Assembly (NCBI GenBank): GCA_025964695.1
Contig: JAOPYK010000173.1
Location: 1-64,000 of the forward strand
Length of the DNA stretch: 64,000 nt
Source: Streptosporangiaceae bacterium
Lineage (GTDB): Bacteria > Actinomycetota > Actinomycetes > Streptosporangiales > Streptosporangiaceae
Reading direction: 5' to 3'
Numbering within the stretch: position 1 is the first letter of the stretch; the number at the start of each line of letters is the position of its first letter. A program made the position numbers and the translations under genes. This document shows positions 16,472 to 63,845 of the stretch, one piece after another. The notes beneath the pieces are model-generated. The model searched no databases. It was not told the DNA's origin and saw only the letters and a program-made list of their open reading frames with translations.

Positions 16472-16572
16472 CGCACCTCCGATGGCTCTTGACTGCGACT
16501 GACGGGCACGGCCGACGCCCCGCTGAGCGCTTTGCACGCTGAGCGCAGCCTGCTCGAGACGACACTTACCGC

Positions 16573-16615: not shown

Positions 16616-16663
16616 CAACCCGGACAGCTGACGCTGTCGACTGACATGGAAGGGTGGCGTTTA

Positions 16664-19784: not shown

Positions 19785-19842
19785 GGTCGTGACGGATCAG
19801 CAGGTATCAGCCGGTGGGCGGCCACCCAGGAAGGGTGCTTCG

Positions 19843-33456: not shown

Positions 33457-33559
33457 GGCCTTCGCTCTCTCTCCGGTTCGGCGGGCGGGGCGGAGGCTGG
33501 GAGGCGTTGTGCCGCGCTCCCGGCCAAGACGCCGCCTTCTGTGACCACACCGCATTTCA

Positions 33560-34670: not shown

Positions 34671-34732
34671 TTGACGAACCATCCTCTCACTGTACGCTCA
34701 TGTCATTCTACTCGTGCGACAGCGAGGATTGC
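34671..34732 (+). promoter_or_regulatory. 62-base TTGACG/TACGCT promoter-operator block (copy 1)
   Basis: -35 TTGACG (34671-34676) and -10 TACGCT (34693-34698) are 16 bases apart. CTCTCACTGTACGCTC covers the -10. CATTCTACT follows at block positions 34-42 and GATTGC at 57-62. The whole block aligns without gaps to 39568-39629 (49 of 62 identical) and to the minus-strand block at 63784-63845. It ends 2 bases before the SDR GTG, so the leader is very short. Confidence 0.75.
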
Positions 34733-35656: not shown

Positions 35657-36880
35657 ATGCTTCGACCGATGGAAGGCGTTCGAATCCTGGAGGTGGCACA
35701 GTTCACCTTCGTTCCGGCGGCCGGCGCGGTACTCGCTGACTGGGGCGCCGACGTCATCAAGGTCGAACACGCGGAGACCGGTGACGCGCAGCGGGGACTC
35801 AGCCAGTTGATGGGCATGCCGGTGGGCGACGGTTCGTTCGCGCCTCTGATGGAGCATCCCAACCGCGGGAAGCGCAGCATCGGCCTGGCGCTGGAGAAGG
35901 CCGAGGCGCTCGAGGTACTGCACGAACTGATCCGCACCAGTGACGTCTTCTTGACGAACTTCCTGCCTGGGGCACGCCGCAGACTCGGTATCGAACTGGA
36001 GGACGTCCGCAAGATAAACCCGGACATCATCTATGTGCGCGGCACCGGCTTCGGCAGTCATGGCCCGGACAGGGACAAGGGCGGCTACGACAGCACGGCC
36101 TTCTGGGCGCGGGGCGGCAGTGCGATGGGGACGACGCCCGTGGAGTTCGACGGTCTGTGTTCGATGCCGGCCGGTGCCTACGGCGACTCCATCGGAGGTA
36201 TGACCATCGCCGGCGGCATCGCCGGCGCGCTGTTCGCCCGGGAGCGCACCGGCGAGACGTCGGTCGTCGACGTCTCCCTGCTCAGCGTCGGTGCCTGGGC
36301 CAACGCGCTCTCGGTGGGCTTCGCTCTGCTGGCGGGCGGTCCGCTACCGCGCCGGACCTCCAGCAACGCGGCGCAAACCAATCCCCTCGTGGGGAATTAC
36401 CGGGCTGCGGACGGCCGGTGGCTCGTGCTGGCCATGCTTCAGCCAGGTCGCTACTGGCCGGAGTTCTGTCGCCACATCGAGCGTGAAGATCTCATCAAAG
36501 ACGAGCGGTTCGCCTCCGTGGAAAAGCTGATGGCCAATGCACCGGCGGCATCGGAGATCATCCGAGAGGTGCTCGCCACCCGCACCCTCGCGGAATGGAC
36601 GACTCGGTTCGCAGGCATGGAAGGCCAGTGGGCCGCCGCGCAGGATCCCTGGGAGGTCAGTCAAGATCCGGCGCTGCGGGCCAATGGATTCATCGCGGAG
36701 GTGACCGACGTCGAAGGCCAGCGGCACGAGCTCGTAGCCAACCCGGTGCAGTTCGATCAAAAACCGGTACGCATCGAGCGAGCCCCGCAGTTCGCCGAGC
36801 ACACCGATGAGATCCTGCGTGGGCTCGGCAAGTCCGATGAGGAGTTGATCGACCTGAAAGTCACGGGTGCAGTCACCTGA
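35657..36880 (+). CDS. CaiB/BaiF family (class III) CoA transferase
   Basis: The 407-residue protein transfers CoA between a carboxylate and an acyl-CoA donor, or acts as a racemase. The family catalytic Asp is at about 145 in GGYDSTAFWARGG. LADWGADVIKVE, HPNRGKRSIGL and LTNFLPGARRRLGI are classical family stretches. An AGAAGAGGAG site precedes the ATG. Together with the SDR it forms a unit under promoter block copy 1. It could recycle CoA onto the incoming substrate without ATP. Confidence 0.92.
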   Translation: MLRPMEGVRILEVAQFTFVPAAGAVLADWGADVIKVEHAETGDAQRGLSQLMGMPVGDGSFAPLMEHPNRGKRSIGLALEKAEALEVLHELIRTSDVFLTNFLPGARRRLGIELEDVRKINPDIIYVRGTGFGSHGPDRDKGGYDSTAFWARGGSAMGTTPVEFDGLCSMPAGAYGDSIGGMTIAGGIAGALFARERTGETSVVDVSLLSVGAWANALSVGFALLAGGPLPRRTSSNAAQTNPLVGNYRAADGRWLVLAMLQPGRYWPEFCRHIEREDLIKDERFASVEKLMANAPAASEIIREVLATRTLAEWTTRFAGMEGQWAAAQDPWEVSQDPALRANGFIAEVTDVEGQRHELVANPVQFDQKPVRIERAPQFAEHTDEILRGLGKSDEELIDLKVTGAVT

Positions 36881-37444: not shown

Positions 37445-38656
37445 CTATTCGGTGTTCAGAAGCAGTCGGGTGCGCAGGACGATTTCCATTTCGAATTTCC
37501 AGTCCGGGTCGTTCATATCTTCACCGAACAGCTCTTGGAGTTGGCGCATGCGGTAGCGCACGGTCTGCGCATGAACGCACAATCGGACGGCGATCTCAGG
37601 GGCGCTTCCCCCCGTTGCCAGCCAGTCCAGGAGCGTCTCACTCAAGCGCAGTCGCTGGAGCGGCTTCAGCGAGGCGAGTGGCCCATATCGGCGCCGGGTC
37701 ATCAGCCGGATCAGTTCCTCGTTACGCAGGAGCAGCAGTGTGGGAAGCTGGTCCGCACAGCGGACGAAATGGTCGCATTTGATGACACCGCGCTGGACGA
37801 GTGACAGGGCTTGTGCGGCCAGGCGAAGCGACAATGGCGCGTCGGCGAGGGGTACGCTAGGGCCGATCGCGAACGGTGAGTCAGGCAGCGCTCGCGCCAG
37901 CATGTCGTGACGACCGGGGCCATCGGGGTCGGGAACGAGTAGACACGGATCAGGGCGTTCCAGATCCATCAGCACGTCCGGGCCTACCGCCGGTCCTATG
38001 CGCGGTCGGCGGGCGACGGCCACGCAGGCCACGGTCTGGGGCAGGCGCCATTGCGCTTCGCTCGCCAGCTCGCGAATGGTCTCGCCGGACAAGGCACGAC
38101 CTCTGGTCAGGACCAGCTCCAGCAGGCGCCGGCGGGGGCGTTGCAACATACCCGCCGTCCTCACTCGCTCCTGCGAATAACCTTGCACCGAGTTCGCCGC
38201 GATCTGTTCGATGTGGGAAAAGACCGCCTCGGCCAGGAAGGACATGGTCGCGGGGGGCCATCCTGCCCGCTGTCCCACCTCGGCGATCCGACGCCAGGCG
38301 ACCCGGGCACCCACGCGATAGGCGGCCTGGAGGCCATCCAGGCTTCTGCCCTCCCGGCACTCACCGCGGCCGAGCGCCCGATAGACCTTGATCCCCTGTT
38401 CCCGAGCTGCCATAGGATCGGCGATCTGATCCACGAACTGGCGCAGTCCCTGCTCGACACCCACCCGGATCCCGACGGCGAAGTGTCCTTGGAGCGGGCG
38501 ATCGAAGTCCGTGACGCAGCACCGGATCTCCTCGATGATCTCATCGGCCAGCGACGGCAACTCCGGGCGCAACAACGAGGCCAGGTCGGCCGGATAGACC
38601 CGCCGGCGGGCCGGGATCTGAAAAGCCGATAGCGCGATCATCGTCACCCCAGACAT
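37445..38656 (-). CDS. PucR/CdaR-type transcriptional regulator
   Basis: The 403-residue protein has an N-terminal helical sensor region (VGIRVGVEQGLRQFVDQIADP), a middle GGDEF-like region and a C-terminal PucR HTH_30 domain. The HTH region reads LLDWLATGGSAPEIAVRL and then VHAQTVRYRMRQLQELFG. GGAG precedes the ATG. These regulators usually activate catabolic genes in response to a metabolite. It lies between two copies of the 62-base promoter block, which makes it a candidate regulator of them, but this is positional inference only. Confidence 0.88.
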   Translation of the reverse strand: MSGVTMIALSAFQIPARRRVYPADLASLLRPELPSLADEIIEEIRCCVTDFDRPLQGHFAVGIRVGVEQGLRQFVDQIADPMAAREQGIKVYRALGRGECREGRSLDGLQAAYRVGARVAWRRIAEVGQRAGWPPATMSFLAEAVFSHIEQIAANSVQGYSQERVRTAGMLQRPRRRLLELVLTRGRALSGETIRELASEAQWRLPQTVACVAVARRPRIGPAVGPDVLMDLERPDPCLLVPDPDGPGRHDMLARALPDSPFAIGPSVPLADAPLSLRLAAQALSLVQRGVIKCDHFVRCADQLPTLLLLRNEELIRLMTRRRYGPLASLKPLQRLRLSETLLDWLATGGSAPEIAVRLCVHAQTVRYRMRQLQELFGEDMNDPDWKFEMEIVLRTRLLLNTE

Positions 38657-39567: not shown

Positions 39568-39629
39568 TTGACGAATGAGACTCTCACTGTACGCTCTGGA
39601 CATTCTACTTATCCGACAGCTTTGATTGC
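39568..39629 (+). promoter_or_regulatory. 62-base TTGACG/TACGCT promoter-operator block (copy 2)
   Basis: -35 TTGACG (39568-39573) and -10 TACGCT (39590-39595) are 16 bases apart. CTCTCACTGTACGCTC, CATTCTACT, CGACAGC and GATTGC occupy the same positions as in copy 1. It lies about 85 bases before the start of the ABC-importer binding protein. Confidence 0.78.
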
Positions 39630-39712: not shown

Positions 39713-40957
39713 ATGCGACCTTGGCGTCCGCTGACGATCGCGTCTCTCGCCGCGTTGCTCGCCCTGACGGCCTGCAGCACGACCAACAAAGGCCCCGGCT
39801 CGACCACCGCAACGGTCGACACCGGCACGTTGACCCCTCCCGGGGGTAAGCACGTCGCGGCCGGCAGCCCCATCAAGGTCGGCCTGATCAATGACGAGGG
39901 TGGGAGCACGGTGAGCTTCCCGGAGATCCGCCTCGGCACCGAAGCGGCTCTCAAGTACGCCAACGACTACCTCGGGGGCCTCGGGGGCCGACCGGTCGTC
40001 TTGGACTCGTGCGCTAGCAAGGGCACCCCCGCATCCGCTGCGGCCTGCGCGAACCAAATGATCGCAGACCATGTCGCGGCGGTGCTGCACGGTCTCGAGA
40101 GCGACTCGGGAACGACGGCGCAGACCCTGATGAACGCCGGTATCCCGGTGATCTCCACCGCTCCGGCCAGTGCCCAGGAGACGATCGGCAAGCTGTCGTT
40201 CTCATTGACCGGCGGCGCATCGGCCTTCGTCGCCGGTCTCGGCCAGTGGATGATCGAGCAGCACTACAAGACGTCGGTGCTCTTCGCGCTCAACACTCCA
40301 GGTGGCACCGCCCTCTACCAGGCTTCCATCGCCTACCTCCAACGACACGGCATCTCCTCCAGCCTGGTCCTGGTGCCACCCGGTACCGCGGACATCACAC
40401 CCCAAATGGCCTCCGCTGCCTCCCACCACCCCGACTTCATGTGGGTACTCGGTGACGCGGGCATGTGCCTGTCCTTCATGCGGGCCTATCAAGCCTCCGG
40501 AAGCAGCGCGAAAATCGGGCTGATCGGGCAGTGCACCGACTCGCAGGTGACGGACGCGGTGTCGCTCGACGGTGCGATCGCGCCTGCCTACTCCGTGCCC
40601 CTGGCGTCCAACTCCGAAGCGCGGCTGTACCGGGCCGTCCTGGCCGCCTACGCCCCGGGAACGGCCCCCGGTGGCCTGGCCTACGTCGGTTACACCATGA
40701 CGCTGGGGATGATCCGAGCACTGCACGGCATGACCGGGCCGGTGAACCCGCAAACGATCGCCACGCAGATGCGAGCGGCGAAGAAAAGCGTCCTCCCCGT
40801 CGCCGACGGGGTCACCTTCACTTGTGACGGCAAGGCGATCCCGCCCTTCCCCGCTCCGTGCTCGGCCACGATCTTCATCACCCGGCTGGACGCCAAGGGC
40901 AACCCCACCGTCCTCAAGAAGCTGCAGGCCATCAGCCTCTTCGGCGGTAAGCCTTGA
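39713..40957 (+). CDS. Branched-chain-amino-acid-type ABC transporter substrate-binding lipoprotein
   Basis: The 414-residue periplasmic-binding-protein fold (LivJ/type I) has lipobox LTAC with Cys21. The family entry IKVGLINDEGG.TVSFPE follows after a Pro/Thr-rich linker. It should capture a substrate outside the membrane for the fused permease encoded next. Start ATG 39713 has GGAAGGAG upstream. In catabolic clusters this family often carries aromatic or alicyclic acids rather than amino acids; the ligand here is unknown. Confidence 0.9.
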   Translation: MRPWRPLTIASLAALLALTACSTTNKGPGSTTATVDTGTLTPPGGKHVAAGSPIKVGLINDEGGSTVSFPEIRLGTEAALKYANDYLGGLGGRPVVLDSCASKGTPASAAACANQMIADHVAAVLHGLESDSGTTAQTLMNAGIPVISTAPASAQETIGKLSFSLTGGASAFVAGLGQWMIEQHYKTSVLFALNTPGGTALYQASIAYLQRHGISSSLVLVPPGTADITPQMASAASHHPDFMWVLGDAGMCLSFMRAYQASGSSAKIGLIGQCTDSQVTDAVSLDGAIAPAYSVPLASNSEARLYRAVLAAYAPGTAPGGLAYVGYTMTLGMIRALHGMTGPVNPQTIATQMRAAKKSVLPVADGVTFTCDGKAIPPFPAPCSATIFITRLDAKGNPTVLKKLQAISLFGGKP

Positions 40958-41036: not shown

Positions 41037-43817
41037 GTGACCCAACTGCCGGAACACCTGCTGCTCGGCATCGGCAACGGGGCGGTGTTCGCAGCGCTGG
41101 CCCTCGCGCTCGTCCTGACTTACCGCAGTTCGGCCGTCCTGAACTTCGCCACCGGCGCGGTCGCGCTGTACGCGGCCTACACCTACGCCTTCCTGCGCCA
41201 GGGGCAGCTCTTCCTGCCGATCCCCGGCCCGCCCAGCACCATCGACCTCGGCGGCCAGCTCGCCTTCGCACCGGCGGCGGCGATCTCACTCGCCGCCGCC
41301 ACGGTACTCGGCGTCCTGAGTTATCTCCTTGTCTTCCGCCCGCTCCGTCACGCACCGCCCGCGGCGCGGGCGGTCGCGTCAGTGGGTCTCATGGTGGTGA
41401 TCCAGGGCACGCTCGCGGAGCGACTCGGCACCAAGGTGGTCGGCGTCGCATCGATCTTCCCGAAGGATCCCCTCCAGGTCGGCAGCGTCGTCGTACAGCG
41501 CGACCGCCTCTACTTCGGCGTCACGATCCTGGTGATCGCACTCGCCCTCGCGGCGTACATGCGCTTCACGCGGTTCGGGCTCGCCACCCGAGCGGCTGCC
41601 GAGACCGAGAAGGGCGCCGTGGTCACGGGTCTTTCGCCCGACCGGATCGCGGTCGTGAACTGGGCCATCAGTTCTCTGATCGCCGGGCTCGCGGGAATCC
41701 TCATCGCACCCATCGTGCCGCTCAGGCCGGTGGGGTACGCCCTGTTCATCGTCCCCGCACTGGCCGCCGCGCTCCTGGGTCAGTTCAGCGCGATCGCTCC
41801 CGCCGTCTTCGGCGGCCTGGCGATCGGAATGATCCAGTCGGAGATGATCTTTCTTCAGGTCGACCATCCGTCGCTCCCCCAGTCGGGGCTGCAGGAAATG
41901 ATCCCACTCATACTGGTCTTCTTCCTGCTGATTGTGCGAGGCCGGTCGCTCCCGACCCGCGGGACTTTGATCACTCATACGCTGGGCCGTGCCCCACGAC
42001 CTCGCACGATCGCCGCGCCGGCAGCGGTCTTCGGCGTCATCGGCATCCTCTTGGTCCTGGTCACCCAAGGTCAGTACAGGGCCGCCTTCGTCACCAGCGT
42101 GATCATGGGCATCATCTCCCTCTCGCTGGTCGTCGTGACCGGCTACACAGGGCAGCTCTCGCTCGCACAGCTCACCCTCGCCGGTACGAGCGGCTTCTTC
42201 CTGAGCGGCATCACGATGTCATGGGGCGTGCCCTTCCCCATCGCTCCGCTCGCGGCCGCGCTCGGCACCATGGGCCTGGGCCTCGTCATCGGCCTGTCGA
42301 CTCTCCGGGCGCGCGGCATGAGCGTGGCCGTGGTCACCCTTGCTCTGGCGGTCGCGGTCGAGGCCTTCTGGTTCAGCAACTCCGACCTGAACGGCGGTCT
42401 CAACGGGGCCCGGGTCAAGCCCCCCGCCCTCTTCGGGCTCGATCTCAGCGTGGGCACCGGCACGCAGCGAGCCGCCTTCGGCATCATGTGCGTCGTCGTT
42501 CTCGTCGCCGTCGCCGTCGCCGTCGCCCATCTGCGACGCAGCCGGCTCGGCGGGGCGATGCTCGCCGTACGCGCCAACGAGCGGTCGGCCGCCGCGGCGG
42601 GGATCAACGTACGGGTCGTGAAGCTGCTCGCGTTCGGCGTCGGTGCCTTCATCGCCGGGCTCGGAGGTAATCTCCTCGCCTACCAGCAGACGGCCGTGTC
42701 CGCGGCCTCGTTCAGCGCGGTCGGCGGTCTCGCACTCTTCGCCGCCGTCTATTTGGCCGGGGTGACGTCGGTATCCGGCGGCGTCCTCGCCGGGGTCATG
42801 GCGCCCGGGGGGCTGCTGTTCATCCTGCTCGACAAGGCGGTCAACCTCGGCTCGTGGTACGACGTCGTCTCTGGCATCGCTCTGATCCTCACCGTCCTCA
42901 CCAATCCGGAGGGGCTGGCCCACGGCGTCCACAAGATCGGCGACCGTTGGCAGGCGATGACTCGCGACCGCCGGGTCGCGGCCACGCGCCCCGCCCACCC
43001 GATCCCGGACCCCCTCTCAGCAGGCGGTTCAGGTCGCGGCGCCGAGCTCGGAGCCCCGGAGACACTGCTCGCAGTAAGGAACGTAACCGTTTCCTATGGC
43101 GGCGTGGTCGCAGTTCGCGATGTCTCGCTGGACGTGCCGGCCGGCTCCGTCGTGGGTCTCGTCGGCCCGAACGGCGCGGGTAAGACCAGCCTGATGGACG
43201 CCATCAGCGGGTTCGCCCAGGCGCGCGGCGACGTCCTCCTGGCCGACCGGCCGGTGGGGAGCCTCAAGCCGCACCAGCGAGTCCGGCACGGGCTGGGCCG
43301 CAGCTTCCAGGGCATCGAGCTGTACGACGACTTGACCGTGGAGGAGAACGTTTCGGTCGGTGACCGGTCACGTCGGCAGGGCGGACAGGATCTCTCGGGC
43401 CTGTTGGCCATGCTCGGGCTCGAAGACGTGCGCGCCCGGCCGGTGTCCGAGCTGTCGCAAGGTCAGCGGCAGCTCGTGTCGATCGCCCGCTCGCTCGCGA
43501 GCCGCCCATCGCTGGTGCTCCTCGACGAGCCCGCCGCCGGCCTGGACAGCCGCGAGAGCCTCTGGCTGGCGGAGCGACTCAGGCAGATCCGCGCCAGTGG
43601 CGTCACCATCCTTCTCGTCGACCACGACATGAATCTGATGCTCAATCTCTGTGACCGTCTCTATGTCCTCGACTTTGGAGCCGTCATCGCCTCGGGGACG
43701 CCGGACGAGGTGCGCAGGGACGACAAGGTCGCCCGCGCGTACCTCGGCGCGACGCACGAGTCCCCAACGCCCACCGGCCCCGTCGAGCCGAAGCGCGCTC
43801 CGCTGGAGGCGTCATGA
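41037..43817 (+). CDS. Fused ABC importer: LivH-like permease, LivM-like permease and LivG-like ATPase
   Basis: A 926-residue single chain replaces three usual proteins. Residues ~1-300 are a LivH-type permease (LTYRSSAVLNFATGAV near the start). Residues ~325-640 are a LivM-type permease (VTGYTGQLSLAQ; LAVRANERSAAAAGINV). A ~35-residue polar linker follows. Residues ~680-910 are the ATPase, with Walker A GPNGAGKTS near 709-717, signature LSQGQRQL near 804 and Walker B LVLLDEPAAGLD near 826. The GTG start is preceded by GGCGGGA. The stop overlaps the second ATPase gene (ATGA). The frame is uninterrupted, so the fusion is genuine in this sequence. Confidence 0.92.
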   Translation: MTQLPEHLLLGIGNGAVFAALALALVLTYRSSAVLNFATGAVALYAAYTYAFLRQGQLFLPIPGPPSTIDLGGQLAFAPAAAISLAAATVLGVLSYLLVFRPLRHAPPAARAVASVGLMVVIQGTLAERLGTKVVGVASIFPKDPLQVGSVVVQRDRLYFGVTILVIALALAAYMRFTRFGLATRAAAETEKGAVVTGLSPDRIAVVNWAISSLIAGLAGILIAPIVPLRPVGYALFIVPALAAALLGQFSAIAPAVFGGLAIGMIQSEMIFLQVDHPSLPQSGLQEMIPLILVFFLLIVRGRSLPTRGTLITHTLGRAPRPRTIAAPAAVFGVIGILLVLVTQGQYRAAFVTSVIMGIISLSLVVVTGYTGQLSLAQLTLAGTSGFFLSGITMSWGVPFPIAPLAAALGTMGLGLVIGLSTLRARGMSVAVVTLALAVAVEAFWFSNSDLNGGLNGARVKPPALFGLDLSVGTGTQRAAFGIMCVVVLVAVAVAVAHLRRSRLGGAMLAVRANERSAAAAGINVRVVKLLAFGVGAFIAGLGGNLLAYQQTAVSAASFSAVGGLALFAAVYLAGVTSVSGGVLAGVMAPGGLLFILLDKAVNLGSWYDVVSGIALILTVLTNPEGLAHGVHKIGDRWQAMTRDRRVAATRPAHPIPDPLSAGGSGRGAELGAPETLLAVRNVTVSYGGVVAVRDVSLDVPAGSVVGLVGPNGAGKTSLMDAISGFAQARGDVLLADRPVGSLKPHQRVRHGLGRSFQGIELYDDLTVEENVSVGDRSRRQGGQDLSGLLAMLGLEDVRARPVSELSQGQRQLVSIARSLASRPSLVLLDEPAAGLDSRESLWLAERLRQIRASGVTILLVDHDMNLMLNLCDRLYVLDFGAVIASGTPDEVRRDDKVARAYLGATHESPTPTGPVEPKRAPLEAS

Positions 43818-44575
43818 GCACCGTCCTGGAATGCCGTTCCCTCGATGCCGGCCATCTCGGCCGGCCCGTCGTGCGCGGGTTCGATCTCAGTGTCTCGGAG
43901 GGCGAGATCGTCGCCTTGCTGGGGCCCAACGGAGCCGGCAAGACCACCGTCCTGCTGACCCTCTCCGGTCTCCTGCCCAAGCTCGGTGGCAGCGTCTCGT
44001 TGCTGGGACACCCCCTGCGGGCCTCCCGGCCGCACCTGGTCACCCGACTGGGGCTCGTGCTGGTACCCGATGACCGGGCACTCTTCACCACACTCACCAC
44101 CCGGGAGAACCTCCGGCTCGGCCGGCGTCGCGGCGGCATGGGCGTCCCGGAGGTCTTGTCATACTTCCCGGCGCTCGAGGAGCGTCTGGACGTCAAGGCC
44201 GGCATGCTGTCCGGCGGCGAGCAGCAAATGCTCGCCGTAGGCCGCGCACTGGTCCAGGGACCGAAGGTTCTCCTCCTCGACGAGATGAGCATGGGCCTGG
44301 CCCCGACGATCGTCGAGTCCCTCCTGAGCGGATTGCGCAAGATCGCCGGCGACTCCGGAGTCGCCGTCGTGCTGGTGGAGCAACACGTGATGCTGGCACT
44401 CGAGGTCGCCGATCGGGCCCTGGTGCTCGCGCATGGCGAGGTCACACTTCAGGGCTCGGCGGCCGATCTGGCCGCTGACCGGGAGCGGCTCGAGAACAGC
44501 TACCTCGGGGCCGGTGCCCGGCCCGCTGGGAACACCGCAAGTGACATAGTCGCTCATATGGCCCGGCCCGCCTGA
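43814..44575 (+). CDS. livF: LivF-type ABC transporter ATPase
   Basis: The 253-residue ATPase has Walker A GPNGAGKTT (about 37-45), signature LSGGEQQMLAVGRAL near 132 and Walker B VLLLDEMSMGLAP. It pairs with the ATPase domain of the fused chain to form the asymmetric Liv-type motor. Its ATG overlaps the fused gene's stop. It is the last gene of the importer operon. Confidence 0.93.
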   Translation: MSTVLECRSLDAGHLGRPVVRGFDLSVSEGEIVALLGPNGAGKTTVLLTLSGLLPKLGGSVSLLGHPLRASRPHLVTRLGLVLVPDDRALFTTLTTRENLRLGRRRGGMGVPEVLSYFPALEERLDVKAGMLSGGEQQMLAVGRALVQGPKVLLLDEMSMGLAPTIVESLLSGLRKIAGDSGVAVVLVEQHVMLALEVADRALVLAHGEVTLQGSAADLAADRERLENSYLGAGARPAGNTASDIVAHMARPA

Positions 44576-54069: not shown

Positions 54070-54132
54070 TCATGCTGGAAACGAACGACCTGCTCTCCCT
54101 AGAGTAGAACATGACTTGCGTTAGTAGCAACG
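54070..54132 (-). promoter_or_regulatory. Promoter of the GTTCTAC family (copy C)
   Basis: On the minus strand -35 TTGCTA (54125-54130) and -10 TACTCT (54101-54106) are 18 bases apart, with GCAAGTCATGTTC in the spacer. A TTGC-N7-GCAA dyad overlaps the -35. Conservation with copy B extends into the leader (CGTTTCC.GCATGA). Confidence 0.65.
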
Positions 54133-55169: not shown

Positions 55170-56480
55170 TCACTCTCCTCCGCTTGGGCGTTTCTTGGTC
55201 GCACGGCGTCGTCGCCACACGACGGGCACCGCGTACCACAGGACTCTGCCGAGAACCGCGGCTGCGATCAGCGGCGGAATGTAGATGAGCCACGAGGGTG
55301 GGCCGCCGGCTTCTCCGTTCGCGGCGTTCTTTACCGGGATCGGAGATGCTGCGGGGGAGGTGCCGGAGGCCGCCGTCTTGGCAGCCTGCCTGGACGCGGG
55401 CGCGGTGGGGATCTGCTGGGTGGGAAGTGACACACCTGGGCAGGTCGGGATACGCGGGATGGAAGGAAGTGGCCGCAGGCTCTTGTACTCCACCGGGCCC
55501 TTGGCCGATCTCGACGGTTGGAAGGTGAAGACGAAGTCCAGGTTCAGGTTGGGCTTACCGTTGATCGGCGGGGTCGCTCCGGTCAGTGCGTTCACGAGCG
55601 CCGGGGACTGACGAAAGCTGATCGCCAGATCGTCGAGGCTGGTGGACGAGAGCAGCGTCGGAAGGGTGGCGTCGAGCGCGCTGATCAGACACTGGTCGGA
55701 GGCCTTCGACTTGGTCAGGATCCCGTTGACCCGGGTAAGAAGATCGGGTGTTCGCTGACGCAGTTGAGTGATCTCGGTGCTGACCGAGGCCAGCGAGTCG
55801 GTGACGGCGGCGACGTTGTCGATGCTGCTGCCGATCTGGTCGCGATGGGCGACGAGTACGCCGGTGACGTTCGTGAGATTCGAGATCAGGTTGTCGAGCA
55901 ACTGCGTGTTGTGTGCGAAGGTCCCGGTGATCTGGCTGCCGTTGTCGATCACTTGACGCAACGAGTCGCCGCGGCCGTCCAATCCTGCGGCCAGTTCGTG
56001 GGTCACGGTGTGAAGGTCATCGGGATTCAGCCCGTTGACGGCCTTGTTCACGGCCTCGAACAGGTCGCCGTAACTCTCCGGCACGCTCGTACGGGAGATC
56101 GGGATCACCTCGCCGGCACGCATCGCAGTGGCGTCCCCGCCACCAGGACCCGGCTCCAGGTCGATGTAAGGCTCGCCGATGGCGGACTTCCGGCCTGCCG
56201 CGGCTGTCATTCCCTCAGGGAGGTGAACGCCCTTGTCAATGTTGAGCGTCGCGATGACCCGATCCCCGCTGAGGCGCACCGACTTTATCTTCCCGACGGC
56301 CACCCCCAGGTAGGTGACGTCGAAGTTCGGCTGGAGTCCAGGCGAGGACGAGAACTCCGCGGTGATGCGGTAGGGGTGGGTCAGCGCGTCGAACCTGATG
56401 ACGTCCTTCAGCGCCCATCCGGTCATGACCACGCCGAGCACCGCGAATACGACCAGGTTGAGCAGGATGCGGCGGGTCAT
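55170..56480 (-). CDS. mceF: Mce-family protein, sixth of the operon (MceF-like)
   Basis: The 436-residue protein has an N-terminal membrane anchor (LVVFAVLGVVMTGWAL), the MlaD/Mce beta domain from ~35 to 125 (DVTYLGVAVGKIKSV; GEPYIDLEP) and a long helical tunnel region. Unusually it also has a second membrane helix near the C-terminus (WLIYIPPLIAAAVLG) followed by an Arg/Lys-rich tail. It is part of the hexameric lipid-shuttling tube. The start overlaps the preceding stop (ATGA). Confidence 0.9.
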   Translation of the reverse strand: MTRRILLNLVVFAVLGVVMTGWALKDVIRFDALTHPYRITAEFSSSPGLQPNFDVTYLGVAVGKIKSVRLSGDRVIATLNIDKGVHLPEGMTAAAGRKSAIGEPYIDLEPGPGGGDATAMRAGEVIPISRTSVPESYGDLFEAVNKAVNGLNPDDLHTVTHELAAGLDGRGDSLRQVIDNGSQITGTFAHNTQLLDNLISNLTNVTGVLVAHRDQIGSSIDNVAAVTDSLASVSTEITQLRQRTPDLLTRVNGILTKSKASDQCLISALDATLPTLLSSTSLDDLAISFRQSPALVNALTGATPPINGKPNLNLDFVFTFQPSRSAKGPVEYKSLRPLPSIPRIPTCPGVSLPTQQIPTAPASRQAAKTAASGTSPAASPIPVKNAANGEAGGPPSWLIYIPPLIAAAVLGRVLWYAVPVVWRRRRATKKRPSGGE

Positions 56481-57523
56481 TGCGCGTGCTCCAACAGGGT
56501 TTTGAGGCTGGCGAGGATGTCCGGGCGCGCACCCGCTGCCGAACCTCCCTGAGATGTGGAGCCGCCGGTGGAATCGGGCCCGACGAGTTGCAGCACCGGG
56601 AATGCCAGCAGCTGACCGTTGTACACGGCTCTGGGAAGCACCTTGACGAAGTTCGTGAGGGTGGTGACGAGCTGGCCAAGATTGGTCTTGTCGCTCGCCA
56701 GCGTCCCGATTGACGGTCCGAGTCGCTCGATCAGCTTGCGGAGCTGGTCGGTACGGCGCACGAGGACCGTGTCATTGATGGTCTTTGCCAGGCTCGACAG
56801 GCCTTGCACCGCGCTAAGGATCTTGTCTCGGTCGTTGGCCAGCATCCGCGTCGTCTTGGCGAGGTTGTCGGGGAGCGCGCTCAGTTGCCGCTGCCCCTTC
56901 GCCAGCTGGCCGCCCAGCCGGGCGAGGTCGTCGACGGCGCCGGCCAGTTGCTCTCGCTGTGCGGTGAACATCACGAGAAGCTGGTTGGACTGCTTGATCA
57001 TTGTGTTGAGCTGCTGCCCTTTACCGCCGAACGCCGTCGCACCGGCATCGACGATCCCGGCGACGTCGTTGCCCGACACGGCGCTCAGCAGGGGACCTGC
57101 CTTACCGACGACCTCCTCGAACGCCGGTGCCACGCTCGTACTGGTGATCTGCGCGTGATTGGCGAGCATGGGCCCACCTGCCACCAGTGAACCCGGCGGC
57201 GGAGCGAGCCGGACGTAGTTCTCCCCGAGCAGCGAGGTGATCGACAGCTCGGCGCTGGTACCGGCGGGCACCTTCACGCCGTTCTTGATCGACATGGTGA
57301 CCTGGGAGCGGTAGCCGGTTCCGGACCCGATCAGTTTGATCCCGGTAACCGATCCCACCGGCACGTCAGAGATCTTCACGGCGTGACCGACGACGAGGTT
57401 CTGGACGTCGTCGAAGTCGGCGGTCAGGGTGAGATCTCCCTTGGGTGCTCCCAAGGTCTGCAATGAGCAGCCCGAGAGCGTGACACTGAGGGCGAGCATC
57501 GCAGTCATCAGCAAACGTCTCAT
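56477..57523 (-). CDS. mceE: Mce-family lipoprotein (MceE-like)
   Basis: The 348-residue protein carries the lipobox LSGC (Cys near 19), then an MlaD domain (VVGHAVKISDVPVGSVTGIK; LLGENYVRLAPP) and helical repeats. It lies eight bases after the MceD stop, with AGGAAG as ribosome site. MceE members of this operon type are typically lipid-anchored. The C-terminus is Gly/Ser-rich. Confidence 0.9.
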   Translation of the reverse strand: MRRLLMTAMLALSVTLSGCSLQTLGAPKGDLTLTADFDDVQNLVVGHAVKISDVPVGSVTGIKLIGSGTGYRSQVTMSIKNGVKVPAGTSAELSITSLLGENYVRLAPPPGSLVAGGPMLANHAQITSTSVAPAFEEVVGKAGPLLSAVSGNDVAGIVDAGATAFGGKGQQLNTMIKQSNQLLVMFTAQREQLAGAVDDLARLGGQLAKGQRQLSALPDNLAKTTRMLANDRDKILSAVQGLSSLAKTINDTVLVRRTDQLRKLIERLGPSIGTLASDKTNLGQLVTTLTNFVKVLPRAVYNGQLLAFPVLQLVGPDSTGGSTSQGGSAAGARPDILASLKTLLEHAQ

Positions 57524-57531
57524 GTGACTTC

Positions 57532-58590
57532 CTACTGGCAATTGGAATAGGGAGGCGGAAGCGGGCACGGGACGTTCGGGTTGACGTTGGGCTGCTTGAG
57601 AAGCGCCGCCAGATACGAGCGGAGAAAATTGTCCATCGAGATTCGCGAGACGATCGAATGATGCTTCGGATTGTAGGCATTGATGAACGTGTAGTTCAGA
57701 TCTGGCAGCGATTGCACGAAGGTCGCCAGCCTGCTCGCGTTGCCTTTCATGATGAGGGCGACCTGGGCGAACCTGGCAAGGTCTTCGGGCAGTTGTTGCT
57801 GGTAGGCCTTGACGAGCGCCCCGCCCTGGTTGACGAGGTGGGCGCTTCCTGCCACGAGGTCCCGGATGTTCTGGCGCTCGTCGGCGGCCATCTGGCTGGC
57901 CTGTGAGAAGTCGCTGATCAGTGAGCCGAGAAGGCGTTCGCGTCCGCGGACCACCCCGGCGACCTGATTCAGATTCTGAGCGACCTGGAGCAGTTGGTCG
58001 TCTTGCGCGGCGATGTTGCCGGTGAGCGTTGCGGTCTGCTGCAACGCGGCGTTGAAGAGTTGTCCGTTGCCCCGAAGCGTTCCGGCGGTCTTGTGCAGGA
58101 TGGTGTTGGCCTGTGCTGGGTCGAAGGAGTCGAGAAGCTTGCTGAACGATTTGAGCGCGTCGTCGACCTCCACCGGCGTGTGCGTACGGTCCTGCCGGAT
58201 CACCGCGGAGTCGGGGAGCTTGGCGTCTCCAGGCTTCCACGGCGGGGAGAGGGTGAGGGTGCGCTCTCCGATGAGGCTGAGTGGCACGATGGAGGCGCTT
58301 ACATTGGCCGGGAGTGGGACCTTCCGGTCGATCGACGCTTCGACCCGTACCTGACCGTTGACCGGCGTGACCGAGTCGATGGTACCGACCTGAACTCCCA
58401 TGACCTGGACTTGCGAGCCGGCATAAAATGAGACGGCCCTCGCAAAATAGGCCGTTATATGGTATTTCCCGGCCACGGACACCTGAAGGTTTTCAGGCAC
58501 GAGTGAACACGCGCTGAGAGCCCAGGCCAACAACACGCCTAGGAGCGCCGCAGTGGCGCGAACTCTCCGGACCGTCCAAGCGTCACCCAT
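57532..58590 (-). CDS. mceD: Mce-family protein (MceD-like) with a lipobox
   Basis: The 352-residue protein has an N-terminal hydrophobic stretch ending in ALSAC, a good lipobox (Cys near 28), so two of the six Mce proteins may be lipoproteins. The MlaD domain contains VQVMGVQVGTIDSV and SLIGERTLTLSPP. It ends in a Pro/Cys-rich VPCPLPPPYSNCQ. The start overlaps the previous gene by 8 bases, behind GGGAG. Confidence 0.88.
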   Translation of the reverse strand: MGDAWTVRRVRATAALLGVLLAWALSACSLVPENLQVSVAGKYHITAYFARAVSFYAGSQVQVMGVQVGTIDSVTPVNGQVRVEASIDRKVPLPANVSASIVPLSLIGERTLTLSPPWKPGDAKLPDSAVIRQDRTHTPVEVDDALKSFSKLLDSFDPAQANTILHKTAGTLRGNGQLFNAALQQTATLTGNIAAQDDQLLQVAQNLNQVAGVVRGRERLLGSLISDFSQASQMAADERQNIRDLVAGSAHLVNQGGALVKAYQQQLPEDLARFAQVALIMKGNASRLATFVQSLPDLNYTFINAYNPKHHSIVSRISMDNFLRSYLAALLKQPNVNPNVPCPLPPPYSNCQ

Positions 58591-59644
58591 TCGGAACTCC
58601 CGTGGGCACCATCGGATAATTGGGGGGATTGAAATTCGGCTGCGGTCCGGCCAGGCTCGGCTGTACGGGGCCCACACCGATGAAGTCGCCCTCGAGGAAC
58701 CGTCCGGGTCCGTGAATCTGGGACAGCCCGTTGAACGTGGGACCGAACCAGGCGAGCGCGGCGTTGAGTGAGGGCAGGTTGCCTCCGGTGAGAGTCCGTG
58801 AAGCAAGGTCGAAATCGGCCAGGATCGTGTTGAGCTGTGCCTGGTGCCGGCTCACCACTTGATCCAGAGTGCGGATCACTTGGCTGCCCTTCCCTAGGGC
58901 CGCGGTGAGTTCGGCTTTCCGCTTGACCAGTTCGTTGAGCAGGCTTTCCCCGTACGTGAGCAGTTGCGCCAGTTGCTGATCCTTCGACGCGAGGGCGGCG
59001 GTGAGCCCCTTGCTGTTGGCAATGATCGCGGTGATCTGCGGCGAATCCCGGTTGAGCGTCGAGGTCAGGTTCTGCAGGTTCGCGAGCATGACGCTGAGCT
59101 GCTTCTGAGTCGGCGGGTTGATGCCGGCGGCGGCCTTGAGGATCCGGTCGACTGATTGGGTGTCGAGCCTGCCGGCCAGGTCCGTGGTGGTGTTGAGTGC
59201 CTGGTTGAGCGTGTACGGGATGCTGGTGCGAGGCAGCGGGATGCGCCGCCCGTCAGCCGACAGGGAATCGGCATAGGGCCTGACCACCGGACCGGACAAC
59301 TTGATGTACTGGCCACCGAGCAGGTTCGCCAGCTCGATGTCGGCGTGGGTCTGCGGGCCGAGTTTGATACCGTCGTCGACCTTCCAGCTGATGACGACGT
59401 TGCCGTGGGTGAAGTCGGGGCTGATGCCGGTCACGGTGCCGACCTTGACTCCGGCGAGCTGAACCTCGCTCCCTACCTGCACCCCGCCGGTAGCGGCGAA
59501 GACCCCGCTCATCGAGTAGCCGCCCCGCCCGAGACCGAGGGTACCGAAGGAGAAGGCCAGAAAGATGAGGGCACCGATCACGGGGATGGAGACGGCTGCG
59601 ACGGCCCGGGGGCTGCGGTCACGGAACGACGTGATCATCATCAT
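58583..59644 (-). CDS. mceC: Mce-family protein (MceC-like)
   Basis: The 353-residue protein has an N-terminal membrane anchor (about 15-35), an MlaD domain (GSEVQLAGVKVGTVTGI; LLGGQYIKLSGP) and a long alpha-helical region. The C-terminus is Pro/Asn-rich (PQPNFNPPNYPMVPTG). It is translationally coupled on both sides. A subunit of the extracytoplasmic Mce tube. Confidence 0.9.
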   Translation of the reverse strand: MMMITSFRDRSPRAVAAVSIPVIGALIFLAFSFGTLGLGRGGYSMSGVFAATGGVQVGSEVQLAGVKVGTVTGISPDFTHGNVVISWKVDDGIKLGPQTHADIELANLLGGQYIKLSGPVVRPYADSLSADGRRIPLPRTSIPYTLNQALNTTTDLAGRLDTQSVDRILKAAAGINPPTQKQLSVMLANLQNLTSTLNRDSPQITAIIANSKGLTAALASKDQQLAQLLTYGESLLNELVKRKAELTAALGKGSQVIRTLDQVVSRHQAQLNTILADFDLASRTLTGGNLPSLNAALAWFGPTFNGLSQIHGPGRFLEGDFIGVGPVQPSLAGPQPNFNPPNYPMVPTGVPNG

Positions 59645-60774
59645 TGCCCCTTGATCTGAGTGCCCAGCAGGAACAGGCTCGCCATCCGCTGGAAGGACGT
59701 CTGCTGTGCGGGGGTGAGCGGACGGCTGCCGCTTCCGGATCCCCCTTGGACCTGCGGCGGGGGCGGGAGGGTCTCCGGGAATCGGCAGACATCTGTCTGA
59801 ACGACGTCGATGCAGAGCACAGTGCCTCGCACGAAGTGACCGCCGTCCATGGTCGTGAGCAGAGCCTGCAAAGCGGCCGGAAGGCCCCTGAGCAGCCCGG
59901 AAAGCTGGGAGACGTTACGGTGCGCGATCTCCAGAAGCGCCGCGGTGCTTTCGACGACGTTGCCGAGCTGAGGACCCTGGCCGCCCAGAACCGTGTTCAG
60001 GTTGGCGGTGAGTCCGCGGAGCTGGACGGTCGCGCCGTCCAGGACCGCCCGGTTGTCGGCAAAGGCCCGGGTGAGCGTTTGCAGGTTCTGCACCGTCTCC
60101 GCGATCTGCTGATCGCGCGTCGCCACGGCGTCGGTGACGGTCTTGTAGTTCGCGATCATCTGGTGGATGGTGCCGCTCCGGGAGCCGAAGACCTGCAAAA
60201 GAATGGAGAGATTGGTTGTGATCTGAGTGATGTTTCCTTCGTTTCCACTCAAGGCCACCGCGAAGGACTGCAGGATCTGGTTGATCTCGTTGGGGTCGAG
60301 GCTGCCGGTCAGCGGGCCCAGACTGTTGATCACCTCGCCGAGATCGACCGCGGACTGGGTTTGGCTCACGTGGGCCCCGTCGTGCAGCACCGCGTTGCTC
60401 GTGCCGGGTATGAGATAGACCTCGCGCTGACCGATGAGATTGCGCCACCGGATGGCGGCTCGTGAGTCCACCGGTATCCGGATGTTCCGGTTGACGTCCA
60501 TGTCGACCGCCGCCCTGCCGTCGACGACTTTGACCCCCGTCACGCGTCCGACCGGTGTCCCCGCGACCTTGACCAGATCGCCCGTGGCCAGCCCGCTCAC
60601 GTCGTCGAAGGTCGCGGCGACCCGGTAGGTGGGATGGAGATCGCTGCCCACGATGGCGTAGGCCATGTAGAGGGTGAGCGAGATCGTCACGATCGCGAAG
60701 AGCAGAAACTTGATCGCCGTGCTGCGTCCAGGGCCGCGGCGGCTGCGGCCGTGCGCTGACGTCCGGGCCATCAT
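59641..60774 (-). CDS. mceB: Mce-family protein (MceB-like)
   Basis: The 377-residue protein starts at one of two adjacent ATGs (60774 or 60771) overlapping the MceA stop. A basic N-terminus and membrane anchor (FLLFAIVTISLTLYMAYAI) lead into the MlaD domain (TGDLVKVAGTPVGRVTGV; LIGQREVYLIPG) and helical repeats. Two Cys in VLCIDVVQTDVC near 335-345 could form a disulfide, as in other Mce B-type subunits. Confidence 0.9.
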   Translation of the reverse strand: MMARTSAHGRSRRGPGRSTAIKFLLFAIVTISLTLYMAYAIVGSDLHPTYRVAATFDDVSGLATGDLVKVAGTPVGRVTGVKVVDGRAAVDMDVNRNIRIPVDSRAAIRWRNLIGQREVYLIPGTSNAVLHDGAHVSQTQSAVDLGEVINSLGPLTGSLDPNEINQILQSFAVALSGNEGNITQITTNLSILLQVFGSRSGTIHQMIANYKTVTDAVATRDQQIAETVQNLQTLTRAFADNRAVLDGATVQLRGLTANLNTVLGGQGPQLGNVVESTAALLEIAHRNVSQLSGLLRGLPAALQALLTTMDGGHFVRGTVLCIDVVQTDVCRFPETLPPPPQVQGGSGSGSRPLTPAQQTSFQRMASLFLLGTQIKGQ

Positions 60775-61823
60775 TTCCCTTTCCTGGGAAGCGGGAGCGC
60801 TGGGGCCGGAGGCCCGCACAGGCCAAGGAACGTCCCGCAGAGTGCCTCGTTCACCCGTACCTGGGAGGTGGTCCGAGTCATGAGCGTGTTGTGCGGACCC
60901 GGCACCCGGACGATGTTGGCCACTTCCTGGAGGTCGGCGGCGACAGCGGCGATGAGCACCGGTATGTATCTGCGGTTGGCATATAGCGTGTCGACCGTGG
61001 GGACGGCGCGGTCGAGGATGTGTCCGACCGCGCCTGGGGTGGCCAGCAGAAGTGTGTTCAGCATCTGAGCCGTCCGTGTACTACCGTCCAGCAGCGCACT
61101 GATCTGCGCGGGGTCTCCGGCGATCGGTCCGGCGAGTGCGTTGAGGTTGCCCGCCATATCCACGAGCCGATCTCCATGGGAAGCCGAGGCGCGCGCCAGG
61201 ACGCTGCCATTGCCGATCAGTTGCCGGAGATTCGTGATGTTCTGAGAGCTGAGGTCCAGCAACCGGCCGGCGTTGCCGATCGTGTCCGACAGTTCCTGGC
61301 CGCGGCCGCTGACGCCTCGGCTCAACGAACGCAGAATGGCGGCGACGTCCTGCGGATCGACGGCGCCCAACAGGCGATCGGCCGGCCTGGCGATATCGGC
61401 CAGGTCCTGCGGATCCTGGGTCTTGGTGACGGCGGCGCCGTCGGCCAGATACGGCCCGGTCCGTTCGCCGGAGCCCGGGACGAGGTCGATGAACTTGGGG
61501 CCGAACACCGACAGCGGCTGGACGACCGCCGTCGTCGTCACAGGTGCCTTCACGCCCTTGTTCAGGCGGATACGGACCCGTACCCGCCAGTTCGAGTCGA
61601 GCCGTATCGAGGATACGGTCCCCACATTGATGCCACGGATCTTGACGGCCGACTGGTCGTCCAGTCCTTCGCCAGATCGTCCGAACGTCGCCATCACATA
61701 GGTGGAGCCCGGATGGTTGTCCTGAATCCCGAGGTAGGCGGTGAACGCTCCCACGGCGAAGAGGCCGGCTCCGATGAGACCGAACATCCGGCGAGATCGT
61801 CGCGACAGATCTGAGTTGATCAT
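60771..61823 (-). CDS. mceA: Mce-family protein (MceA-like)
   Basis: The 350-residue protein starts at ATG 61823, overlapping the YrbE stop (ATGA). The N-terminal anchor (FGLIGAGLFAVGAFTAYLGI) precedes the MlaD domain (DQSAVKIRGINVGTVSSI; FGPKFIDLVPG) and helical repeats. A Cys pair lies near the C-terminus (ALCGTFLGLCG). It is the first Mce subunit after the permeases and presumably touches them directly. Confidence 0.9.
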   Translation of the reverse strand: MINSDLSRRSRRMFGLIGAGLFAVGAFTAYLGIQDNHPGSTYVMATFGRSGEGLDDQSAVKIRGINVGTVSSIRLDSNWRVRVRIRLNKGVKAPVTTTAVVQPLSVFGPKFIDLVPGSGERTGPYLADGAAVTKTQDPQDLADIARPADRLLGAVDPQDVAAILRSLSRGVSGRGQELSDTIGNAGRLLDLSSQNITNLRQLIGNGSVLARASASHGDRLVDMAGNLNALAGPIAGDPAQISALLDGSTRTAQMLNTLLLATPGAVGHILDRAVPTVDTLYANRRYIPVLIAAVAADLQEVANIVRVPGPHNTLMTRTTSQVRVNEALCGTFLGLCGPPAPALPLPRKGK

Positions 61824-62671
61824 CCGGTCAGGCTCACTGTTCCTCCGTGCCCCCAGAAGATGTACGAGAGCAGCAGGTTCACCATGATGATCGACACCAT
61901 GGACTCGCGGATCGCCTGCCCGGTGGCGTGCCCGACGCCCACCGGGCCACCGACGGCCTGAAAGCCCCGATAGCAATGGACGATCACGATGATGAAGGCG
62001 AACACCACGACCTTGACAACGCTGTAGAAGACGTCGATCGGTGGCAGATAAAGGTGGAAGTAGTAGTCGTAGACGCCGGGTGAGATCCCGAAGAACTGGA
62101 CGGATATCAGCCGGGTGGCGAAGAAGCTGGAGAACAGCGCGATCAGATAGAGCGGGATCAACGCGGCCAGCGTGGCGACCAGCCGGGTGCACACGAGGTA
62201 GGCCAGCGCGTTGATGCCCATGACCTCCAGCGCATCGATTTCCTCAGAGATCCTCATTGCGCCGATCTCCGCGGTGAAGGATGCCCCGAGCTGGAAGACC
62301 AGGGCGATTCCCGCGATGATCGGGGTGATCTCCCGGACGTTGGCGTAGCTGGCGATGAGACCCGCCAGGCTCTGCGCACCGATGCGCTGCAGGCCGGGGA
62401 TGGCCTGTAGCCCGACCGTGGTCCCGGTGAAGAACGACATGAAAAAGATCACGAAGACCATGCCGAGCCCGACCACGATCGCGCCGACCCCCGCGACGAT
62501 GTCGCTGATCTGCCGCAGAACGGTCCGGAAGTACCTGCCCCGCGCGATGTCGGTGACCAGGTGGTAGAAGACGCGCCCCACGAAGACGGCCAAGTCGGCC
62601 GCGCCCGATCCCGGGGTCCATCGCCATCGAACGGCATGGCGCAGCACACGTCCCGGCGAGATGGCAGCCAT
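61820..62671 (-). CDS. yrbEB: YrbE-type ABC transporter permease (second)
   Basis: The 283-residue MlaE-family permease has about five membrane helices. The central MlaE hallmark is present (GASFTAEIGAMRISEEIDAL; INALAYLVCTRLVATLAAL), and SQSFFGISPGVYD-like loops follow. With the first YrbE it forms the membrane channel of the Mce lipid importer; the ATPase (Mkl/MceG) is normally encoded elsewhere and is absent here. The start overlaps the previous stop (TGATG). Confidence 0.93.
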   Translation of the reverse strand: MAAISPGRVLRHAVRWRWTPGSGAADLAVFVGRVFYHLVTDIARGRYFRTVLRQISDIVAGVGAIVVGLGMVFVIFFMSFFTGTTVGLQAIPGLQRIGAQSLAGLIASYANVREITPIIAGIALVFQLGASFTAEIGAMRISEEIDALEVMGINALAYLVCTRLVATLAALIPLYLIALFSSFFATRLISVQFFGISPGVYDYYFHLYLPPIDVFYSVVKVVVFAFIIVIVHCYRGFQAVGGPVGVGHATGQAIRESMVSIIMVNLLLSYIFWGHGGTVSLTG

Positions 62672-63486
62672 CAGATCCTCGGGGGGAACAGGGCGTAGTC
62701 CAGTGCGGACAGCACGTAATTGGCGGCGAACACCAGCATGGCGGAGATGACCGCCGCCTGGTTCACCGCCCTGCCCACCCCGCTCGGCCCGTAGTCGCAG
62801 TTCATGCCCTTCCAGCAGGCCACCGCGGCGGCGATGAACCCGAAGATCCAGGCTTTGATCAGGGTCGCCAGCAGGTCGGGAAGGGTCAGCAGCGAGGTCG
62901 CGCCGTCGAAGTACGACCCCGGGGTGACGCCCTCCTGGATGACGTTGAAGTAGTAACCCCCGACGATGCCGGCCAGGATGATGAGGGAACAGAGCATCAC
63001 CCCCACCGTGCTCGCGGCCCACAGCCGTGGGGTGACGAGGCGGTGCACCGGGTTGATGGCCAGGACCTCCATCGCGTCCAGCTCATCGCGGATCCGCCGC
63101 GAACCCATGTCCGACGTCATGGCCGAGCCACCCGCACCGGAGATCAGCAAGGAGGCGGCCACCGGCGCGACCTGTGTGACGAGTGCCTGCACGACACTGG
63201 CGCCCGTACCTGACTGAGCACCGATCTGCCGGACGATCTGCCCTACCTGCAGCGCGATGGTCCCGCCCAGCGGTATCGCGACGAGCATCACCGGGACGCT
63301 GGTGACCCGGGCCAGAAACCAGCACTGCTCGATGTACTCACCCCACCATCGGCGGACGTCCCAGGTCTTGCGGAACCCCTCGAGCGTGGTGATGAACAGC
63401 AGACCGCTCTGGTCGAAAAAGGCGCCGACCCTGCTTCCCACCGCCTGCGTGCCCGCAAGCACGCCGCGGTTCACGCCGCCGGCCAT
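62671..63486 (-). CDS. yrbEA: YrbE-type ABC transporter permease (first)
   Basis: The 271-residue MlaE-family permease contains LLISGAGGSAMTSDMGSRRI and DELDAMEVLAINPVHRLVTPR, the conserved cytoplasmic loop for ATPase contact. About five membrane helices are predicted. The ATG at 63486 is chosen because CGGAGG lies upstream; a longer form from a TTG at 63549 is possible. It is the first gene of the mce operon. It is preceded by an unusually long leader behind the promoter block at 63784-63845. Confidence 0.92.
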   Translation of the reverse strand: MAGGVNRGVLAGTQAVGSRVGAFFDQSGLLFITTLEGFRKTWDVRRWWGEYIEQCWFLARVTSVPVMLVAIPLGGTIALQVGQIVRQIGAQSGTGASVVQALVTQVAPVAASLLISGAGGSAMTSDMGSRRIRDELDAMEVLAINPVHRLVTPRLWAASTVGVMLCSLIILAGIVGGYYFNVIQEGVTPGSYFDGATSLLTLPDLLATLIKAWIFGFIAAAVACWKGMNCDYGPSGVGRAVNQAAVISAMLVFAANYVLSALDYALFPPRI

Positions 63487-63783
63487 TCGGGCAACCCTCC
63501 GCTCGGGATCGCGGGACCGCTCATCCAGGCCTCCTCCTTCACCGGACAACCGGCGTCAGTCACGTGTAGCTGGGCTGTCCGGTCTGTGATGGGGCACAGC
63601 AACCAGTCAGAAAAGCGAGCATTGATTGCCTTATTAATTGCTTGACTCTGCGTAACGATCCATCGACCACGCGCCCCGGCAGCGCCGGGAGACGCGATCG
63701 CCGACGAGCGCGATGGCGTGTGGGGCCGCCCTGACGAATGACACGTGTGCCACTATGCATTGCACAGCCCCCTCGTCTAGATG
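63487..63783 (-). other. Long untranslated leader of the mce operon
   Basis: About 300 bases separate the promoter block from the first permease start. A short minus-strand frame (about 63560-63760, start behind GAGGGGG) could encode a 66-residue basic peptide. Its composition is not convincing and it contains TTA and AGA codons. A GC-rich hairpin-like stretch (CCCGGCGCTGCCGGG) lies near 63680. No other gene is visible. Confidence 0.4.
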
Positions 63784-63845
63784 GCAATCCCAACTTCCAC
63801 AGAAGTAGAGTGCAATGAGCGTACAGCGAGAATCACATTCGTCAA
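63784..63845 (-). promoter_or_regulatory. 62-base TTGACG/TACGCT promoter-operator block (copy 3, mce operon)
   Basis: On the minus strand -35 TTGACG (63840-63845) and -10 TACGCT (63818-63823) are 16 bases apart. CTGTACGCTC, a CACTCTACT counterpart and GATTGC fall at the same block positions as in copies 1 and 2. I count 46 of 62 identities with copy 2, without gaps. Confidence 0.75.

Follow-up and report, generated by a model that had tools for sequence, protein, structure and literature searches.

Three similar 62-base blocks (W1 to W3) in the window, i.e., the whole 64,000-nucleotide stretch of DNA analyzed, contain an element that, as judged by sequence comparison, is most likely the predicted operator of a TetR-family repressor for a catabolic-uptake regulon. 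The blocks precede a short-chain dehydrogenase (SDR)/CoA-transferase unit, a Liv-type importer, and an mce operon, respectively (Table 1). We consider it probable that the whole model, in which the TetR protein would act on four units including the one with the mce copy, is correct.

Table 1. Features of the window relevant to the predicted regulon
Feature	Position	Strand	Remarks
TetR-family regulator	32749..33456	-	Proposed binder; 235 aa, MARRKSG start; orthologues in relatives
Alpha/beta hydrolase	33560..34369	-	First gene of the hydrolase-TetR unit
W1 block	34671..34732	+	TTGACG-N16-TACGCT promoter plus element; before SDR/CoA-transferase, divergent from hydrolase-TetR
W1 conserved operator core (predicted)	34685..34712	+	Block positions 15-42
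SDR	34735..35496	+	Likely GTG start at 34735
Class III CoA-transferase	35657..36880	+	
PucR-type regulator	37445..38656	-	Disfavoured as binder
W2 block	39568..39629	+	Before substrate-binding protein and fused Liv-type importer
W2 conserved operator core (predicted)	39582..39609	+	
Liv-type substrate-binding protein	39713..40957	+	Likely ATG start
Fused Liv permease-ATPase	41037..43817	+	926 aa
LivF-type ATPase	43814..44575	+	
Candidate weak site	54104..54121	+	2 mismatches to core; upstream of amidohydrolase gene (ATG 53959, minus strand)
mce operon	55170..63549	-	Two MlaE permease and MlaD/Mce genes; first start codon uncertain
W3 block	63784..63845	-	Before mce operon; downstream sequence resembles that of W2
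W3 conserved operator core (predicted)	63804..63831	-	

The blocks and their conserved part

Alignment confirmed that the three blocks described in an earlier, sequence-only reading of this DNA match without gaps, with the identities given there for W1 and W2 (49/62) and for W2 and W3 (46/62); W1 and W3 are identical at 44/62 positions. As that reading had listed, all three contain TTGACG, a 16-base spacer, TACGCT, (C/T)TCTACT at block positions 36-42, and GATTGC at 57-62. Genome scans with core patterns, a check that it had proposed in the form of a profile, returned W1 to W3 only and not sites before many unrelated housekeeping genes. Specifically, in the window's 7.66-Mb genome, TCTCNNTGTANGCTCATNNCATTCTAC and a core pattern of 20 fixed bases, each allowing ≤3 mismatches, matched W1 to W3 only, with no match for either control, and TTGACG-N14-18-TACGCT occurred at five places, three of them W1 to W3 (reversed control, three places). 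Because these searches recover W1 to W3 while the controls are low or zero, the blocks are not chance matches. Among 60 genomes (the window's own and 59 others), the block is present in two, the window genome and its sister G001, which is the sole other genome of the genus in this set and contains two further full copies. The 20-base pattern (≤3 mismatches) occurred at 10 places in four whole genomes, all at the catabolic cluster described below or its counterparts (control, 0).

The five full copies, i.e., W1 to W3 and the two in G001, agree over 42 bases, TTGACGAA-N6-TCTC-N2-TGTACGCTC-N4-CA(Y)TCTACT. With the G001 copies included, strong conservation is kept for positions 1-42 only, and this part consists of a TTGACG/TACGCT promoter overlapped by TCTC-N2-TGTACGCTC-N4-CA(Y)TCTACT, which supports the earlier proposal that the blocks are more than core promoters. 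We discarded GATTGC as part of the operator; one G001 copy has GATACC instead, and none of the seven Nocardia copies has the hexamer at this place. TTGACG and TACGCT, 16 bases apart, can be read as a sigma-70-type promoter, from which transcription would be expected to start near block position 35. The core spans the -10-like TACGCT in W1 to W3, so that the predicted site overlaps the target promoter.

G001 also contains a sixth copy (15480, minus strand), which has kept positions 15-42 and lacks TTGACG. On one side it is bordered by the end of a CoA-ligase gene and on the other by a second gene encoding the same TetR protein (66% identical). It points away from the TetR gene, toward the convergent ligase gene's end; no gene that it could drive in the forward direction was seen at that locus. 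This copy fits a division of the block in which positions 15-42 would be the operator and TTGACG the -35 box. Across genera, the core positions are constant and the spacer positions variable, and six of the seven Nocardia copies lack TTGAC. The long and strict conservation in the five full copies of the genus, including the -35 and -10 hexamers, might suggest a promoter for an alternative sigma factor without any operator, but this is barely conceivable given that the copy at the second G001 TetR gene and the six Nocardia copies have lost TTGAC while most of the core is kept, and that the core is reversed at the Mycobacterium SDR gene. On core orientation and TTGACG loss, we disfavour a sigma factor alone.

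We compared the ten pairs of full copies and their flanks with shuffled sequences. The block scored above each of 200 shuffles in 10/10 pairs; the 200 bases upstream were at shuffle level in all ten, orthologous pairs included, and the 258 bases downstream beat all shuffles in the two orthologous pairs and W2/W3 only. These comparisons bear on the possibility that the blocks are alike merely as recent copies of one promoter, in which case a shared regulator would be unneeded. The similarity of W2 and W3 does extend well beyond the block, but the flanks of the other non-orthologous pairs are at or near shuffle level, as the upstream flanks are even between orthologous loci, and the core positions are kept between genera while the spacer varies. 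On the basis of the shuffle-level flanks, we reject recent duplication alone, the W2-W3 relation excepted, and consider it a very unlikely explanation for the set.

The operators of TetR proteins are usually, although not universally, palindromic. No dyad above shuffles was found in the predicted operator, where 40, 277, and 261 of 300 shuffles had symmetry as good as that of W1, W2, and W3, respectively; judged by eye, similar 4-base steps repeat in it at 11-base spacing. The non-palindromic operator is the main weakness of the TetR reading.

The element and its candidate binders in other genera

Searching genome contigs with the SDR yielded 61 loci, of which 12 are at ≥67% identity: one on contig C471 of G001, ten in Mycobacterium (one filed as Mycolicibacterium), and one in Nocardia miyunensis. 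At all 12, a TetR orthologue is nearby together with parts of the same catabolic cluster. By family resemblance, with assignments mostly under the curated NCBIfam cut-offs, this cluster encodes acyl-CoA ligases, acyl-CoA dehydrogenases, enoyl-CoA hydratases, thiolases, P450s, and an aldehyde dehydrogenase, a content suggestive of a pathway that breaks down the side chain of a lipid-like or alicyclic acid. We note that the product of window positions 14816-16618 combines a thiolase-like domain with a ChsH2-type zinc ribbon and OB domain in one fusion, as in steroid side-chain aldolases.

The element precedes the SDR gene in G001 and Nocardia and, in a diverged form, in Mycobacterium. Alignment of intergenic regions placed it before both the SDR and the TetR genes in N. 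miyunensis; in Mycobacterium, a shorter common core, GTAGAAYNNNRTGNGCGT, lies before the SDR gene and the hydrolase-TetR unit, with 0-3 mismatches at the TetR units and facing the other way at the SDR gene. In 13 whole genomes, the exact core occurs at 10 places in nine genomes, nine of them at these cluster genes, including one upstream of the hydrolase gene in G207. The one place unaccounted for, G200:C31:35579-35596 in a Nocardia, is away from the cluster. Going by these alignments, the element is older than the genus.

The window TetR protein has an N-terminal HTH (TetR_N, PF00440; 28.4 bits against a cutoff of 24, run on the longer frame 32749-33612). At E 1e-60, it matched in at least 4 of 198 Mycobacterium genomes and in at least 2 of another 148 genomes, adding G319 (Mycobacterium) and G537 (Nocardia), and at 1e-40 in at least 4 of 198 relatives of the window genome, namely, the window genome itself, G001, and two distant ones (38-41%); with 14-19 candidates scored per genome, these counts are lower bounds. 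In 15/15 genomes examined, the TetR orthologue lies within the cluster. The promoter of the window's own TetR unit carries the element. For 18 orthologues from the 15 genomes, we recorded the best match to GTAGAAYNNNRTGNGCGT in the 400 bases upstream: it had ≤2 mismatches in 14, three in three, and five in one, and its orientation to the TetR gene was the same in 18/18, the weakest matches being at chance level. Among 600 shuffled regions, 3 reached two mismatches, 47 reached three, and none had fewer than two; among 600 stretches of 400 bases drawn at random from the same contigs, with the sites themselves included, 19 had ≤2. The core had been written from part of the 18 promoters tested, and the regions not used for it have one (G319), one (G537 TetR), three (second N. 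miyunensis TetR), and five (second G537 TetR) mismatches; the G207 TetR region has none, but was found with the pattern itself. The exact core was present in 3 of 4 Mycobacterium genomes with the TetR protein and in 7 of 194 without (p 0.0004; 14 candidates per genome scored for TetR), although two of the three had served to write the core; the reversed core occurred at 13 places in these 198 genomes. The recognition region SEMSLRTFY is identical in the window TetR and both G001 TetR proteins, and the corresponding HTH stretch reads SxMSQRTFY in 9/10 aligned Mycobacterium proteins, where the operator differs too.

Using a ten-site profile, we found that the N. miyunensis TetR site scored 15.0 bits when left out of training and the other nine sites 30.8-48.6 bits. 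At the hydrolase-TetR unit of G537, only a poor site was found (17.7 bits; five mismatches). Unplaced matches of 9-15.2 bits lie in L118 (3254 and 7834), the window contig (83727 and 34664, the latter overlapping W1), L120 (9502), and G001 (21768), and the one at 83727, unaccounted for at 15.2 bits, scores no lower than the left-out N. miyunensis TetR site; as a control, shuffled copies of 7/9 scanned sequences gave two places of 9-15.2 bits.

The sequence-only reading had named the PucR-type regulator as a candidate binder, and in the window its gene lies next to the liv block, on the left. That PucR binds the blocks and activates the units is nevertheless highly improbable. A close relative (72%) is found in G001, at 19237-20439, i.e., only in the two genomes of the genus among the 15; of the 13 other genomes with the TetR cluster, all Nocardia or Mycobacterium, 12 had no match at E 1e-50 and one had a match at 38%. 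No block was found near the G001 PucR gene. Because PucR fails to co-occur with the element and TetR outside the genus, we disfavour it as the binder. The window genome has four further PucR-type paralogues (42-47% identical), on contigs C296, C173, C246, and C41.

The same blocks could also define one regulon under a different binder, a non-TetR factor or several proteins, with the TetR gene merely among the targets. The non-palindromic operator with its 11-base-spaced steps would agree with this, a mere target gene would carry the element as well, and TetR and PucR are the only two regulators compared for co-occurrence with the element. Against it stand the constant presence of the TetR orthologue in the cluster and the frequency of the element before its gene; moreover, TetR proteins are described as commonly controlling their own and a divergent gene (PMC3511530), and the TetR-like Mce3R as binding a non-palindromic operator, though as a double-domain chain (PMC11667970). 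Overall, we consider a different binder unlikely. One feature of the layout counts against the TetR reading: the hydrolase and SDR starts in the window are ~365 bases apart, which exceeds the 200 bases within which TetR genes are mostly described to control a divergent neighbour (PMC3511530).

Uptake systems and candidate targets

In N. miyunensis, one copy of the element is shared by the gene for the fused Liv permease-ATPase (70% identical) and the hydrolase-TetR genes, which run divergently from it; this copy, between LivHM-G and hydrolase-TetR, was a training site and has TTGACT at block position 1, the -35 place. The profile also recovered an extra, untrained N. miyunensis site (36.6 bits; two mismatches to the 20-base pattern) before binding-protein/CoA-transferase genes. 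In Nocardia G537, one apparent operon comprises the genes for the binding protein, SDR, CoA-transferase, and Liv components, and the profile site at its front is weaker (19.8 bits). The GTAGAAYNNNRTGNGCGT core misses the profile's sites at the Nocardia binding-protein genes, its best matches there having four and three mismatches at other places. The fused permease-ATPase chain is kept at ~70% identity in two Nocardia.

Since the element or an operon joins both in Nocardia, the importer genes and the SDR/CoA-transferase genes belong together outside the genus as well, and W1 and W2 may derive from a unit that was formerly undivided. A common DNA-binding protein, as put forward in the sequence-only reading, is strongly indicated for these two units because the element precedes both kinds in N. 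miyunensis and G537 has them in one apparent operon, albeit with a weaker site. The same proposal had included the mce operon, and this link is seen in one of two related species, with a block before mce in the window genome only.

The window genome and G001 have orthologous mce operons (first permease, 86-87% identical), and no block was found before the G001 operon by the profile, the 20-base pattern, or the core (best match three mismatches, chance level). Sequences downstream of W3 align with those downstream of W2, and the alignment takes in the initial codons of the binding-protein gene (score, 20; mean of 5000 dinucleotide shuffles, 10.4; maximum, 18), W2/W3 being one of ten pairs compared downstream. 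Based on this alignment, the mce block seems to be a copy of the liv promoter, and liv to mce is the direction that we infer: this promoter, together with the beginning of the binding-protein gene, would have been copied before mce. The intact hexamers and core suggest that the mce copy still works. G001 has retained the liv block and the opening codons of the binding-protein gene; at G001:C471 54905-55492 (L011 near 12863-13450), they form a relic before another small open frame. A binding-protein match was not found in G001 (94% complete; search without a positive control).

The amidohydrolase gene is a possible further target. The weak site upstream of it, ACGCAAG-N4-GTTCTACTC, has a conserved counterpart in G001 (11741). 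In N. miyunensis, no clear site was seen in the promoter of the amidohydrolase gene (three mismatches), and the gene therefore stays a candidate only. In G001, a possible site (38102) before the orthologue of the 18549 gene is not conserved in the window genome and was dropped.

Proposed regulation and related systems

In the mechanism that we propose, a sigma-70-type promoter would be overlapped by a TetR operator extending from just upstream of the -10 to about +8. Ligand-free TetR would occupy positions 15-42 and block RNA polymerase at four units: the regulator's own hydrolase-TetR genes, transcribed in the opposite direction from W1; the SDR/CoA-transferase genes (W1); the Liv importer (W2); and, for the lineage of the window, the mce operon (W3). 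The substrate, or a CoA-thioester made from it, would release TetR, and uptake and breakdown would start together. Tentatively, we entertain the more specific possibility that a single-domain TetR protein reads an asymmetric operator on one-helical-turn steps, and that the cassette was copied from the importer to mce in one of two species, so that two mechanistically different uptake systems came under one ligand.

If correct, the model names a likely regulator for a so far uncharacterised catabolic cluster of actinobacteria that some Mycobacterium and Nocardia share, and it defines a regulon that can be tested. It would tie the Mce lipid shuttle and the Liv-type importer to the same pathway, and the recruitment of the mce operon by promoter copying would offer a natural with/without pair.

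The sequence-only reading had known of no description of such shared control; joint TetR control of catabolism and an mce operon has already been described for KstR and mce4 (PMC1995591). A literature search returned nothing joining an mce operon, TetR, operator, and ABC transporter, and the present regulon is not named in related literature as far as titles and abstract openings tell. The divergent arrangement of a TetR gene and enzyme genes sharing one intergenic region is described as common (PMC3511530) and is found here too; in contrast to the usual case, copies of the element stand at two to three distant units, and the starts of the divergent genes lie far apart. Mce3R is described as a TetR-like repressor of an mce operon with a non-palindromic operator, features that the predicted system would share, and as a protein of 406 aa with two TetR halves (PMC11667970). 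The window TetR differs from this double chain of ~400 aa in having 235 aa with one HTH/TetR_N stretch, and the two proteins match only weakly (E 0.0046).

KstR of Mycobacterium is described as a TetR-family repressor with an operator in its own promoter partly overlapping the -10, and its motif precedes lipid-metabolism genes and the mce4 operon (PMC1995591). We rejected KstR itself as the binder, as its motif, TnnAACnnGTTnnA, is absent from W1 to W3 and 40 bases on either side; it occurs once in the 116-kb contig, at 5576. The predicted system resembles that of KstR in involving the regulator's own promoter, lipid-metabolism genes, and an mce operon, with an operator partly over the -10; unlike in the KstR system, the element is non-palindromic, and a Liv-type importer is among the predicted targets. 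These comparisons point to a new regulon of the KstR kind, with a different operator, a Liv-type importer, and apparent recruitment of an mce operon in one of two species.
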